From Bradyrhizobium sp. CB1015 (GTDB lineage Bacteria > Pseudomonadota > Alphaproteobacteria > Rhizobiales > Xanthobacteraceae), in contig NZ_CP104174.1 in NCBI RefSeq assembly GCF_025200925.1, positions 7,006,001-7,070,000 on the forward strand: a stretch of 64,000 nt of DNA, written 5' to 3'. The position numbers and the translations under genes are program-made. The first letter of the stretch is position 1. The number at the start of each line of letters is the position of its first letter. Below are positions 5,142 to 10,377 of the stretch, piece by piece. Below the pieces are notes generated by a model. The model was not told where the DNA came from and did not search any database. It saw only the letters and a list, made by a program, of their open reading frames with translations.

Positions 5142-7307
5142 TCAATTCGCCCCAGCATCCAGCCGGAACGCGTTTTCGACAATACGTAACCCCACGTCAC
5201 CGCCGAGCGACATCAGCGATTCCGGGTGGAATTGAACGCCGGCGACCGGCAGGGTCTTGTGCTCCAGCGCCATGGCAACGCCGTCCTCGGTGCTGGCGGT
5301 GACGCTCAGGACCTCCGGCATGCTGTCGCGCTCGACGAAGAGCGAGTGATAGCGGCCGATGACGATCTCGTTCGGCAGGTTGCGCATCAGGCGGCCGCCG
5401 CGGACCTGCACCCGCGAGGGCCGACCGTGGGCGGGATGGGTGAGCTGGCCGAGCTCGCCGCCGAAATATTCGCCGATTGCCTGCACGCCGAGGCAGACGC
5501 CGAACACCGGCAGCTTCTTCTCCAGCGCCGCATCAATCGTCTTCTTGATCCCGAAATCCTCAGGGCGCCCGGGGCCGGGCGACAGCACCAGCAAGTCCCA
5601 CCTCTTCTGCTTGAGCATGTCGAGCGCATGCACATAGCGGACCACGGTGACGCTGGCGCCGACCTGACGAAAATAATCGGCGAGCATGTGCACAAAACTG
5701 TCGTCATGGTCGATCAGCAGCACCTGCTTGCCGGAACCGGTGGCATCGGGCGCAAAGGTCGAGAGCGGCTTCGGCGGATCGCCGCGCAGCGCCTGGAACA
5801 GCGCGGCGGCCTTGACCTGGCACTCGCGGTCTTCTGCGGCGGGGTCTGAATCGAACAGGCAGGTGGCGCCGACGCGCACCTCGGCGAGGCCATCCTTCAT
5901 GCGAATGGTGCGGATGGTGAGGCCGGTGTTGATACTGCCGTCGAAATTCACCGCGCCGATCGCACCGGCATACCAGCGCCGCGGCGAGCGCTCGTGGTCC
6001 TCGACGAACTGCATCGCCCAGAGCTTTGGCGCACCCGTGACCGTGACCGCCCAGGCGTGGGTGAGGAAGGCATCGAGCGCGTCGAAGCCCGGGCGCAACA
6101 TGCCCTCGACGTGATCGACGGTGTGAAACAGCTTCGAGTAAGTCTCGATCTGGCGGCGCGCCAGCACCTTGATCGTGCCGGGCACGCAGACGCGCGCCTT
6201 GTCATTGCGATCGACGTCGGTGCACATGTTGAGCTCGAACTCGTCCTTCTCCGAGTTCAGCAGCTGGCGGATCTGCTCGGCATCGCCGATCGCATCAAGG
6301 CCACGCGCAATCGTGCCCGAGATCGGGCAGGTCTCGACGCGGCGGCCGTCCGAACGCACGAACATTTCGGGCGACGCCGAGACCAGGAATTCGCCTTCGC
6401 CGAGATTCATCAGCGCGCCGTAAGGCGCCGGGTTGATGACGCAGAGCCGCTGGAACACTTCGGCCGGCGAGCGGTCGCAGGGCTCGGCGAACAGCTGGCC
6501 GGGCACGGCCTCGAACAGATCGCCGCGGGCGAAGGCGGCGCGCGCTGTTTCGACGGTGGCCTGATATTCGCCCGGCGCGTGATCGGCAAATCCCTGCCGC
6601 GGCGTCTTCAGATAGGGGCTGTCGGCGGTCTCGCGCGGCAGGCCTTCGGTCGATTTGCCCTTCCAGGCGAAATCGTAAGAGAGCACGACGCCGCGGCCGG
6701 TGGCGCGGTCGTAGGCGAGCAGGCGATCGGGCACGTAGAGCACGATGTCGCGCTGGTCAGCTTCGCGCGCGCGTTTCTGCACGAGGTCCTCGATCTGGAA
6801 GACGAGGTCGTAGGCAAAGGCACCGAACAGGCCGAGCAGGCCGTCATCGTTGGCCGAGAAGGCGGCGACGAGATCGCGCACCAGCGACATTACGCTGGCA
6901 CGCCGCGTGCGCTGGTCCTCCTCGACCGGCGCATCGCCGCGGATGATGTGGCCGGCAAGCCGCGTCGCCGTCTTCTCGGAGATCACGACGCAGGGCTCGC
7001 GCAGGACGTCGCCGAGAAAAGCGATCAGCACCTCTCCGCGCGCGTTCAGCGCTTCCAGCCTGAAATTGACGCCCACGGTCTCGAGCTTGAGCGGCGGATC
7101 GGAGAAGCCGAGGTCGAAGCTCTCGTAGCGGCCGGGCACGGTCGTGCCCGAGGACAGCACCACGCCGCGGCGGCGGTCGAGCAGGCTCACGAGATCGTCG
7201 AGCCTGTTGGCGCCGCCGGTGAATTGCTCGGCCACGCGCGTGATCGCCAGACCCGCGCGGGTCACGTAGTCGCTTCGAGCCGGGAGGGCAAAGACTGTCC
7301 TGTTCAT
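5142..7307 (-). CDS. trpE(G): anthranilate synthase, fused TrpE-TrpG
   Basis: A 721-residue fusion of both anthranilate synthase components, first committed step of tryptophan synthesis (chorismate plus glutamine to anthranilate). Residues 1 to about 515 form the chorismate-binding TrpE part. From about 525 comes a glutamine amidotransferase with nucleophile Cys605 in FGVCLG and the GVQFHPES triad histidine near the C-terminus. Fused trpE(G) genes are typical of rhizobia. The gene is preceded by a 15-codon leader peptide with two adjacent Trp codons and a hairpin (7414-7471), which indicates tryptophan-dependent attenuation. No other trp genes are in the window, consistent with the split trp loci of rhizobia. 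Confidence 0.97.
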   Translation of the reverse strand: MNRTVFALPARSDYVTRAGLAITRVAEQFTGGANRLDDLVSLLDRRRGVVLSSGTTVPGRYESFDLGFSDPPLKLETVGVNFRLEALNARGEVLIAFLGDVLREPCVVISEKTATRLAGHIIRGDAPVEEDQRTRRASVMSLVRDLVAAFSANDDGLLGLFGAFAYDLVFQIEDLVQKRAREADQRDIVLYVPDRLLAYDRATGRGVVLSYDFAWKGKSTEGLPRETADSPYLKTPRQGFADHAPGEYQATVETARAAFARGDLFEAVPGQLFAEPCDRSPAEVFQRLCVINPAPYGALMNLGEGEFLVSASPEMFVRSDGRRVETCPISGTIARGLDAIGDAEQIRQLLNSEKDEFELNMCTDVDRNDKARVCVPGTIKVLARRQIETYSKLFHTVDHVEGMLRPGFDALDAFLTHAWAVTVTGAPKLWAMQFVEDHERSPRRWYAGAIGAVNFDGSINTGLTIRTIRMKDGLAEVRVGATCLFDSDPAAEDRECQVKAAALFQALRGDPPKPLSTFAPDATGSGKQVLLIDHDDSFVHMLADYFRQVGASVTVVRYVHALDMLKQKRWDLLVLSPGPGRPEDFGIKKTIDAALEKKLPVFGVCLGVQAIGEYFGGELGQLTHPAHGRPSRVQVRGGRLMRNLPNEIVIGRYHSLFVERDSMPEVLSVTASTEDGVAMALEHKTLPVAGVQFHPESLMSLGGDVGLRIVENAFRLDAGAN

Positions 7308-7413
7308 GTCGTCCTCTTACGAAACTTGCCGAGGGAACGCCACACAGGACAAACGATCAGGCCGCCGCGCTGTGCTGGCGACCTTCGACGATTTTGAGAA
7401 ATGAAATCGCACC

Positions 7414-7437
7414 GGCCACCTCTTTAGGAGGTGCGCC
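7414..7437 (-). promoter_or_regulatory. candidate trp attenuator hairpin
   Basis: On the minus strand, arms GGC-CACCTC and GAGGTG-GCC (one bulged base, five-base loop) overlap the last codons and the stop of trpL. A ribosome stalled on the adjacent Trp codons would cover the 5' arm, as expected for an attenuation switch. Alternative hairpins exist further downstream (for example CACAG/CTGTG arms between 7340 and 7380), and which is the terminator cannot be decided by eye. Confidence 0.6.
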
Positions 7438-7471
7438 ACCAAAGACGGGCTGGGCGGACGGCGGTGCTCAT
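7424..7471 (-). CDS. trpL: trp leader peptide (15 residues, two Trp)
   Basis: A short open frame encodes MSTAVRPARLWWRTS and ends 116 bases before the trpE(G) start. Two consecutive Trp codons near the end are the hallmark of a trp leader. There is no ribosome binding site before the ATG, but a promoter-like sequence places the transcription start on the A of the ATG, so translation would be leaderless. Leaderless trpL upstream of trpE(G) is established for Sinorhizobium meliloti, where the released leader RNA and peptide also act in trans. Identification here is by reading the sequence, not by homology search. Confidence 0.85.
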   Translation of the reverse strand: MSTAVRPARLWWRTS

Positions 7472-7477
7472 GGGGCG

Positions 7478-7507
7478 ATACTCACCATGGCCCGGGGGCG
7501 GCGTCAA
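7478..7507 (-). promoter_or_regulatory. promoter of trpL-trpE(G)
   Basis: On the minus strand a -35 box TTGACG (7502-7507) is followed by an 18-base spacer and a -10-like GAGTAT (7478-7483). Six bases separate the -10 box from the trpL ATG, which would put +1 at the start codon. The spacing is good for a housekeeping sigma factor. Confidence 0.6.
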
Positions 7508-7521
7508 GGTGCGGCAAGGCG

Positions 7522-7606
7522 GTAGCCCGGATGGAGCGGAAGCGCAATCCGGGGTTCGCGCCAAGACGAGAGGACCCCGGATTGCGCTGCGCTCCATCCG
7601 GGCTAC
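7522..7606. repeat. palindromic repeat, GTAGCCCGGATGGAGCG family, copy 1
   Basis: Arms GTAGCCCGGATGGAGCG and CGCTCCATCCGGGCTAC enclose a second pair CAATCCGGGG and CCCCGGATTG. Two further copies occur at 38537-38622 and 41762-41849 with nearly identical arms and different loops. It sits between the convergent-facing end of the dienelactone hydrolase gene and the trpL promoter. Confidence 0.9.
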
Positions 7607-7618
7607 AGGCTGCCGAGA

Positions 7619-8293
7619 TTACCCCAGATGCTTCCTGAAAAACTCCGTCGCCCGACCCCAGGCGAGCTCGGCGGCTTCGCGGTCGTGCACGGCCTGGCGC
7701 TGCTCGTTGACGAAGGCGTGCTCGGCGTCATAGCGGAACAGCTCCAGCGACTTGCCGGCGGCCTTCATGGCCTTTTCGAAGCCGTTGACCAGCTCCGGCG
7801 TACACCAATCGTCCTTGTTGGCGAAATGGGCCTGGAGCGGGATCTTGACGTCGGCGGGCTTGGCCGCCTGCTCGGGCGGAATGCCGTAGAATACGACGCC
7901 GGCCGCGAGCTCAGGGATCTTGGTCGCGCCGATGATGGTCACGGCGCCGCCGAGGCAGAAGCCTGTCAGCCCGACCTTGGCGCCGTTGCGCGACAGATAT
8001 TGCGCGGCGCCGCGCACGGTCTGCGTGGTGGCGTCCATGAAGTCGAGCGAGTTCATCTCCTTGTTGGCACTGTCCGTGTCGTGATACGGCACCACCTTGC
8101 CCTTGTAGAGATCGGGCGCCAGCGCGTCGAAGCCGGCCAGCGCGAAGCGGTCGCACAGGCCCTTGATCTGGTCGGACAGGCCCCACCATTCCTGGATCAC
8201 GACCACGCCCGGCGCGTTGCCGCGCGCGGCATTGGCGAGATAGCCCGAGGCGTCCTTGCCGTCCGGGCGCTTGAAGGTGATGCTGGTTCCCAT
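7619..8293 (-). CDS. dienelactone hydrolase family protein
   Basis: A 224-residue alpha/beta hydrolase. The nucleophile is Cys113 in GFCLGG, with Asp161/Asp162 and His192 (EHAF) in the expected triad positions, and the EWWGL segment near residue 35 is typical of the family. The founding enzyme opens dienelactone in chloroaromatic degradation, but many bacterial members have unknown substrates. The ATG at 8293 is chosen because GGAGGA lies just upstream and the protein begins at the usual place; the frame is open further upstream only by chance. No degradation genes are adjacent, so the substrate is not predicted. Confidence 0.88.
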   Translation of the reverse strand: MGTSITFKRPDGKDASGYLANAARGNAPGVVVIQEWWGLSDQIKGLCDRFALAGFDALAPDLYKGKVVPYHDTDSANKEMNSLDFMDATTQTVRGAAQYLSRNGAKVGLTGFCLGGAVTIIGATKIPELAAGVVFYGIPPEQAAKPADVKIPLQAHFANKDDWCTPELVNGFEKAMKAAGKSLELFRYDAEHAFVNEQRQAVHDREAAELAWGRATEFFRKHLG

Positions 8294-8499: not shown

Positions 8500-8540
8500 C
8501 AATCGGGATAGGGGGAGCCTCGCGACTCCGCCCCTCCCAC

Positions 8541-8572
8541 ACCACCGTACGTACGGGTCCGTATACGGCGGT
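8541..8572 (-). ncRNA. group II intron domain V hairpin
   Basis: On the minus strand ACCGCCGTATACGG pairs with CCGTACGTACGGTGGT, giving a stem of the size expected for the catalytic domain V, located just after the end of the intron gene. A G-rich/C-rich stem between about 8508 and 8537 is a candidate domain VI. The assignment is by position and shape only. Confidence 0.6.
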
Positions 8573-8580
8573 TCGGTGGA

Positions 8581-9956
8581 TTATGCGGGCCGCTGTGCCG
8601 CGACGGAAGCCAAGCCGAGTGTGCCGAAGAACGCGATTGGCATGGCGATGGTGAGCGCAAGACTGTTGGCGAGCCGCCAAGGGCCATGCGGGCTGCCGGC
8701 GGTTTGTGCCGCCAGCTCCCGGCCGACGCCGCGACGTCGCAACTCGGCAAACGAGTGTCACCGCGCTTCCATTGTTTCCAGGCGATGGCGCGCAACCGCC
8801 GCCTGAGCCATTCGTCAAGTGTGCGCAATACCGACGGGGTTTGGCAGAAGCCGAAGTAGCCGCGCCATCCGATCAGATAGCGCGACAGCTCCTTGGCAAT
8901 CTGCGCGAGGCTTCGGCCGCAGGTGCGTCGCGTCAGTCCTCGGACCTTCGCCTTGAAGCGGGCGAGTACCTGCGGCGCGATGCGCCGGCGCGGTTCTTTT
9001 TCGCCGGTAAAGCTGAAGCCCAGGAACTTGCGAACGCTCGGTTTGGCGACCGCGCTCTTGGCTTTGTTGACCTTGAGCTTGAGGCGCTTTTCGAGGAACC
9101 GTTCGATGCCCGCCAGCACCCGCTCACCCGCCTTCCGACTGCGCACATAGATGTTGCAGTCGTCGGCATAGCGCACGAAGCGATGGCCGCGCTTCTCCAA
9201 TTCCTTGTCCAGCACATCCAGCATCAGGTTCGACAATAGCGGCGAGAGCGGACCGCCTTGCGGCGTGCCCTCCTCCGTCGGGCTGACCAGTCCTCCCTCC
9301 ATCGCACCCGTGGTCAAGAAGCCACGGATCAACTTGAGGAGGCGCTTGTCAGCCACCCGCCTGGCAATGAGCCCCATCAGGATGTCGTGGTTGACCCGGT
9401 CGAAGAACTTCTCCAGGTCGATGTCCACGACGACGGCATGTCCGGACGCAATATACGCCTGCGCCCGCTCCACCGCCTGATGCGCCGAGCGCCCCGGCCG
9501 GAAGCCGAAGCTGGTCTCGGAGAACGTCTCATCCCAATCCGCCTGTAGCACCTGCATCGCCGCCTGCTGGATGAAGCGGTCGAGCACCGTCGGGATGCCA
9601 AGCAGCCGTAGGCCGCCCGACGCCTTCGGTATCTCCACCCGCCGCACCGACTGCGGTTTGTAGGTGCCCTCAAGCAACTGGGCCCGGATCGTGGGCCAAT
9701 GCTCTTTCAGGTAGCCCGGCAGCTCGCCGACGGTCATCCCGTCGACGCCCGCCGCGCCCTTGTTGCGCGTCACTTGCGCCAACGCTTTCTTCAGATTCTC
9801 ACGCCCAACAACTGCTTCCATCGACGGCCCTTCGTCCGCCGGGCGTTCGAGGGCGGTGGCCGCCGCGCGCGCTACGGTCTCTCGGGCGGCGGCGTTCGGG
9901 GCTTCACCCTTCGTTCCGGTGCCCAAGTTCAGCTTGACCTGATTCTTCTGCCGCAT
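8581..9956 (-). pseudogene. ltrA: group II intron reverse transcriptase/maturase, frameshifted
   Basis: The RT domain is intact in one frame: fingers from about residue 50, FGFRPGRSAHQAV near 151-163, the catalytic YADD at residues 263-266, and the start of the maturase X domain. After residue about 401 (WKQWKRGDTR) the frame goes wrong at an AAA run near 8749-8751. Adding one base there restores the usual C-terminus, with AAQTAGSPHGPWRL and a TAA at 8581-8583, giving 458 residues. A one-base deletion therefore removes the last about 57 residues of the maturase. Without the correction the frame runs on through the repeat into the dienelactone hydrolase region. The intron may be unable to splice or move by itself, unless the shift is a sequencing error. 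Confidence 0.85.
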
Positions 9957-10377
9957 GGCTCGCGCGAGATCACCGTTCTACTAACCGCTTCTACCGTTTG
10001 GGCCTTCGGCGGCACGCCGCCGCCTACTATGCCCGCTGCTGACTTCTGCGCTGCGGTCAGATCGCCTTACGACGACCTCAGTCCCGTTGCCGGGACACAG
10101 CACAGACCTCCCGAGGTAAGACCGACCGCCTTCACCGCACGCTCGCCGGATTTACCACCCCGTCCCTTGATGACCATGGACTTCGCGATCATGTGCTCGC
10201 TCGTCCGGCCGGGTAGGCCTCGTTATCCGGTAATTGTCCATCGAGCCGCGGCTTTGCTCCACGCTGTCTTCAGACCCCACCTCGCGATGACGCCCTTGCG
10301 CTTCGCTAATCCTTCGCCGTCATCAGGCTGGATAGAGGACTTCCACCTCCAAGCTGTCGTTCATACTCGGCACACAC

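Follow-up and report, generated by a model that had tools for sequence, protein, structure and literature searches.

A probable transcription attenuator with a tandem-Trp leader peptide ahead of the fused trpE(G) gene in Bradyrhizobium sp. CB1015

The window, a stretch of 64,000 nucleotides (G000:C1:7006001-7070000), belongs to an 8.41-Mb single-contig Bradyrhizobium genome, and the feature described here lies on its minus strand (Table 1). The product of trpE(G) matches PRK13566 with 1154.8 bits (cut-off 645) and TIGR01815, TrpE-clade3, with 991 bits (cut-off 739.15), and by TrpE(G) the closest named relatives of the genome are Bradyrhizobium species. This trpE(G) is the only full-length match of its kind in the genome, the two others covering the amidotransferase part alone. 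Ahead of it lies the short ORF trpL, with its ATG at 7471-7469, 164 nt before trpE(G), and its TAA at 7426-7424; the codons are ATG AGC ACC GCC GTC CGC CCA GCC CGT CTT TGG TGG CGC ACC TCC TAA. On the minus strand the order is TTGACG, an 18-nt spacer, GAGTAT, 6 nt and the ATG. The initial annotation had described a 15-codon frame with two adjacent Trp codons and a hairpin over its stop, preceded by these two promoter elements with this spacer, and direct reading bears out all of it. The leader core had a single match in the genome, the trpL locus itself, when up to three mismatches were allowed, and a plasmid search with 7380-7620 (near mode) gave zero matches. A second trpD-like gene was also observed in the genome, at G000:C1:1742539-1743513, with a score of 304.3 bits, over the curated cut-off, as compared to 403.3 bits for the main trpD.

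Table 1. Elements of the trpL-trpE(G) leader region, in window positions.
Feature	Position	Strand	Basis
-35 element TTGACG	7502-7507	-	TTGAC spacing conserved
-10-like element GAGTAT, with a mostly conserved GGT before it	7478-7483	-	sequence, spacing
trpL, putative leaderless leader ORF MSTAVRPARLWWRTS, 15 codons, TAA stop	7424-7471	-	sequence, conservation, near-identity to Bja-peTrpL
Protector hairpin (1:2), stop codon in loop	7413-7438	-	folding, family alignment
Segment 2, GGUGGCC, antiterminator 5' arm, within protector 3' arm	7414-7420	-	pairing conserved
Segment 3, GGUCGCC, common to antiterminator and terminator	7377-7383	-	alignment, folding
Segment 4, GGCGGCC	7360-7366	-	alignment, folding
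Terminator hairpin (3:4)	7354-7387	-	folding, family alignment
Weak U-tract UUUGUCCUGU after the terminator	7344-7353	-	rejected by strict terminator scan
Conserved UGUGUGGCGUUCC; may pair with about 7383-7370 as the 3' arm of an alternative hairpin	7334-7346	-	suggestive only
Shine-Dalgarno-like AAGAGGA of trpE(G)	7312-7318	-	sequence, conserved
trpE(G), fused anthranilate synthase, 721 aa	5142-7307	-	profile matches above curated cut-offs

The conservation of the leader was followed through genomes with a fused trpE(G), which is what our surveys cover. From 363 candidates in a genome scan 80 loci were retained, and a Trp-Trp frame stands 161-175 nt ahead of trpE(G) in all 80. Together with the window and 11 further family genomes these make up a Bradyrhizobium-type set of 92 leaders, 84 of them distinct, and the ATG is exactly 10 codons ahead of TGGTGG in 92/92. 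The family sample comprised 198 genomes, 81 with a fused-trpE(G) match, of which 12 were already included; 67 of the 69 others were retrieved, two loci with a match starting at residue 18 or later being left out. The Trp pair is present in 65/67 of these further family loci, and the remaining two, from one genus, have Trp-Arg at the same place. The latter two leaders, L172 and L175, have Arg for the second Trp (FWRPTF). They retain TTGAC at 36 nt upstream of the ATG, as well as a T5 run preceded by a GC-rich inverted repeat. An order-wide sample of 297 genomes contained 82 besides the window's own with a fused trpE(G) match, and 80 were retrieved. Outside the family, 63/69 of the retrieved fused-trpE(G) loci in the order have a Trp leader; the run of Trp codons is three long in 57 of these leaders, two long in 3 and four long in 3. 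The six loci with no Trp-Trp leader nearby (L150, L156, L159, L160, L162 and L163) are all the retrieved genomes of one genus in family f16, and their trpE(G) is fused. The ORF, its position and its conservation are thus established.

The spacing of the promoter is conserved together with the ORF. Among the Bradyrhizobium-type leaders, 92/92 have TTGAC at 35-38 nt upstream of the ATG, and 65/65 further family leaders carrying Trp-Trp have it at 34-39 nt. In 56/63 leaders from outside the family, an in-frame ATG has TTG 33-39 nt ahead of it; when the upstream sequence was put through 500 simple shuffles, the mean was 9.4 and the highest value 17. If the spacer is fixed at 18, the distance from the end of the -10 to the ATG is 5-8 nt in 92/92. 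In 87/92 leaders, counting from the fifth base past the -10, a purine is first met at the A of the ATG, and this A is accordingly the first base suited to a start. GAGTAT matches TATAAT at 3/6 positions, and strict scans of 7300-7560 gave 0 promoters and 0 terminators. The spacing lends comparative support to the proposal in the initial annotation that the promoter places +1 on the ATG, and a leaderless trpL start, with +1 at or beside the A of ATG 7471, is strongly suggested by the sequence comparisons. In S. meliloti, rnTrpL begins with the ATG of trpL (PMC7298713). A start-site study of B. japonicum reports 192 starts exactly on start codons, and neither trpL nor trpE is named in its main text (PMC4842269).

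It is conceivable that the transcript starts further upstream, with trpL an ordinary leadered ORF or read from ATG 7488. This would agree with the weak -10, and 33/80 relatives have an upstream ATG that shares the frame of trpL, but in 47/80 and in the window it is out of frame, the window reading ATG GTG AGT ATC GCC CCA TGA from there. ATG 7488 also sits between the -35 and the -10. Furthermore, no Shine-Dalgarno is visible before 7471 in the window sequence, conservation is poor upstream of the -35, the TTGAC distance is kept throughout the 92 leaders, and the trpL mRNA of S. meliloti is leaderless with Ribo-seq support (PMC10117765). We consider an upstream start improbable, and keep the leaderless start in what follows.

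Downstream of the start, three pairings are possible, and they are mutually exclusive. The protector arms are 7438-7428 and 7422-7413, with one bulged base and the UAA within the loop. This 26-nt hairpin has a folding energy of -15.1 kcal/mol and a z-score of -4.79, and 0/200 shuffles were as good. The terminator has a core in which 7383-7377 pairs with 7366-7360, extended to 7387-7354; over the full length it reaches -17.3 kcal/mol (z -2.77, 2/200 shuffles as good), and when cut to 7361-7386 it reaches -10.9 kcal/mol (8/200 as good). The antiterminator stretch 7378-7422, which is one base short of segment 3, has a z-score of -1.20 with 27/200 shuffles as good, and the 92-nt stretch 7380-7471 folds no better than shuffles (z -0.28, 66/200 as good).

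In the Bradyrhizobium-type set the proportion of paired cells was 98.9% for the protector, 96.9% for the terminator and 100% for the antiterminator. The initial annotation had proposed conservation across Bradyrhizobium genomes as a check, and this protector figure, together with the Trp-Trp codons in 92/92 leaders, speaks in its favour. These leaders are too alike for covariation among them to say much, and pairing was also compared in a wider alignment, A2, of 84 sequences: the window, 62 distinct of the 65 family leaders, and 21 Bradyrhizobium-type leaders picked for spread. In A2 the protector has 96.1% of its cells paired and the terminator 94.0%, each with 24 cells of two-sided change, a number reached in 0/500 shuffles, though these cell counts are inflated by shared ancestry and just one or two pairs carry the signal. 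In the protector it is one pair only, C-G to U-A in 24 sequences, with 19 unpaired there. In the terminator there is C-G to U-A in 22 sequences, with 21 unpaired there, and A-U to G-C in 2. In neither hairpin does the count of two-sided pairs, or that of pair types, rise above the shuffles. The antiterminator has 98.3% of its cells paired through G-C/G-U tolerance, with zero two-sided changes. Segment 3 has two places that vary, for the most part as C or U, and the antiterminator partner is kept each time, which is how, on the aligned sequences, an arm shared by two helices should behave.

Two other helices were considered. An outer stem, helix D (7435-7430 with 7413-7408), was rejected: one of its pairs is unpaired in 8/84 Bradyrhizobium-type leaders and in 25/84 sequences of the family alignment, and its single two-sided change was equalled by 80/500 shuffles. 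A helix between leader positions 5-10 and 58-63 has 98.6% of its cells paired and zero two-sided changes, and was not used.

The pairings also explain the end of the peptide, because codons 13-15 (CGC ACC TCC), which encode its RTS tail, form the 5' arm of the protector. The N-terminal part of the peptide is variable in sequence, and its length differs too in some genera. Thr14, encoded by three paired bases, is kept in 80/80 loci and 64/65 family leaders; the difference between Arg13 and Pro13 falls at the bulged base, and that between Ser15 and Phe15 (TCC/TTC) is the position that switches from C-G to U-A together with its partner. The tail of the peptide thus follows the RNA, which bears on claims that the peptide has a trans function of its own. 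The tail had been noted as unlike that of S. meliloti, and it does differ, yet it is the tail published for Bradyrhizobium (PMC7298713).

The hairpin over the stop codon was rejected as a terminator; it is the 1:2 protector, and the terminator lies downstream at 7354-7387. Thus the initial annotation was supported in placing an attenuator before trpE(G), while the terminator and most of the antiterminator lie downstream of the stretch 7414-7507 to which it had assigned the attenuator. It was mostly right, and anatomically incomplete. The terminator hairpin is conserved, but its U-tract is weak and the strict scan for terminators was empty. In other families of the order, a hairpin was seen beyond the stop, and a clear U-run often accompanies it (selected leaders, without a shuffle control), and among other Rhizobiales leaders that were folded we found hairpins of the kind seen here, several of the 21 with a stronger U-run. 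A loose search (5 U in 10, no shuffle control) matched 137/140 leaders, a count that we set aside as evidence because several of the matches (among them L086, L185 and L229) are clearly not the terminator.

Ahead of a trp gene, the feature combines a short ORF in which Trp codons stand in tandem with protector, antiterminator and terminator pairings that are mutually exclusive. Very probably it controls trpE(G) by ribosome-mediated transcription attenuation, has a leaderless leader peptide and is orthologous to trpL/rnTrpL of B. japonicum. The course of events that we infer for it is the following. RNA polymerase would start at or next to the A of ATG 7471, and a ribosome would initiate on the bare 5' AUG and read the 15 codons. 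When charged tRNA-Trp is scarce, the ribosome would stall at codons 11-12 and cover the 5' arm of the protector, so that segment 2 could pair with segment 3 before segment 4 exists, giving readthrough into trpE(G). When Trp is plentiful, a ribosome at the UAA in the protector loop would cover segment 2, segment 3 would pair with segment 4, and termination at about 7344-7353 would release a small RNA of about 120 nt. The terminator would be expected to form also when there is no translation.

Folding with parts of the RNA covered showed how the pairings compete. With a ribosome covering the RNA to +46 (a Trp codon in the A site) and the RNA extending to +105, the mean pair probability of the antiterminator was 1.0. 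With the ribosome on the stop codon the antiterminator had 0, and the terminator 1.0 at +122. At equilibrium with a stalled ribosome and RNA to +122, the terminator had 0.98 as compared to 0.02 for the antiterminator. That the terminator wins at this length even when the ribosome is stalled implies that antitermination is possible only if the antiterminator is formed ahead of the terminator, which is also the case in classical attenuation. Without a ribosome, at +122, the terminator had 0.99 and the protector only 0.40, because other partners are available at the 5' end of the leader. The mean pair probability of the protector without a ribosome varied between 0.06 and 0.45 with the length of the RNA.

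An attenuator of this kind is already known in the genus. Bja-peTrpL of B. japonicum (B. diazoefficiens) 110spc4 is a peptide of 15 aa, MSTAVAPARLWWRTS (Melior et al. 2020, PMC7298713). It agrees with the peptide of the window in 14/15 residues, in the Trp pair, in the RTS tail and in its position before trpE(G); the present peptide, from a different Bradyrhizobium genome, has Arg6 where Bja-peTrpL has Ala6. The homologous locus and the nearly identical peptide in that paper (PMC7298713) mean that the trpL attenuator is real, correctly read and ordinary, and already published for Bradyrhizobium. The present analysis places its terminator and antiterminator, and indicates that the published attenuator is widespread, in genus and family alike, wherever trpE(G) is fused. 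It does not open a new class of regulation. The trpLE(G) system of S. meliloti (rnTrpL, also RcsR1) has a fused trpE(G) like that of the window, and trpL at the 5' end of the RNA, as is suggested for the window, but its 14-residue peTrpL has three Trp codons and unrelated flanking residues. The window is not filed under the E. coli type of leader in Rfam, Trp_leader RF00513, against which it scores 17.4 bits as compared to a gathering cut-off of 41. The trpL of E. coli likewise has tandem Trp codons and the 1:2 / 2:3 / 3:4 logic, and it has a ribosome binding site. Transcription of trp in E. coli is repressed at high Trp, unlike that of trpLE(G) in S. meliloti (PMC7298713).

Trans action of both the RNA and the peptide has been described for S. 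meliloti, and also for Bradyrhizobium (PMC7298713). In B. japonicum, Bja-peTrpL is reported to act in trans on a multidrug-pump repressor mRNA, and its overproduction lowers the mRNA of the smeR homolog and raises tetracycline resistance (PMC7298713). For action of the sRNA on trpDC mRNA, a crude duplex score of the leader against 2500 nt of the trpD locus in its own genome gave no signal: it was -105.1, with 7/60 random window stretches lower. This score, a sum over long duplexes, tests trans targeting poorly. Any trans action in the present strain is likewise something that we infer. These published effects (PMC7298713), together with the poor U-tract UUUGUCCUGU and the empty strict scan, could mean that attenuation in cis is weak or lost in Bradyrhizobium, and that the leader is kept mainly for its trans-acting RNA and peptide. 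Against this stand the conserved Trp-Trp codons and pairings, and that the protector pairing is kept in 24/84 sequences by a base change which alters residue 15 (Ser/Phe). That the pairing is kept while the residue changes favours a role for the RNA, and we find it quite improbable that attenuation in cis has given way in this manner. A chance ORF with a chance hairpin in a 5' untranslated region, which the unremarkable folding of the 92-nt leader stretch and the empty strict scans might suggest, is refuted by the conservation and the two-sided changes, and has next to no probability left. Attenuation in cis is thus the reading that we retain.

A further conserved block follows the terminator. 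TGTGTGG was observed after the leader ORF or trp terminator in 54/65 family leaders (L164-L230), as compared to 1/69 outside the family. The copy in the window is able to base-pair with the terminator loop and segment 3, a stretch for which folding gives -20.1 kcal/mol. In the folding calculations the terminator probability without a ribosome was 0.96 at +140 and 0.08 at +160, and with a ribosome on the leader it had dropped to 0.03-0.09 already at +140; the TGTGTGG block may be what causes this late loss. The corresponding hairpin after the terminator, hairpin X, has 88.5% of its cells paired in A2, with 8/500 shuffles as high, and its covariation score is above all 500 shuffles, while its two-sided changes do not exceed shuffles: 5 cells, with 64/500 as high, and 2 pairs, with 376/500. 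The block could be a hairpin that exists only in the readthrough RNA, or it could be kept for another reason. It is an unlikely, though not far-fetched, suggestion that the family has a second, readthrough-only element, in which the UGUGUGGCG block pairs back (7334-7383), undoes the terminator once the polymerase has passed, and sets the stability or translation of the trpE(G) mRNA.

It was also possible to observe two other elements in this part of the window. A group II intron lies at 8502-10291 on the minus strand, with matches to Rfam RF02001, RF01998 and RF00029, and TIGR04416 identifies a reverse transcriptase/maturase domain in it (405.5 bits, cut-off 300). It is flanked by a hydrolase-like ORF, for which the YghX family model scores below its cut-off, and by a cytochrome b-type gene. 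Just upstream of the trpL -35, at 7514-7608, there is a palindromic dispersed repeat, presumably a REP-type element. Among the 40 of 138 candidates that were scored, at least 82 matches were counted over both strands, spread over about 40 genomic places.
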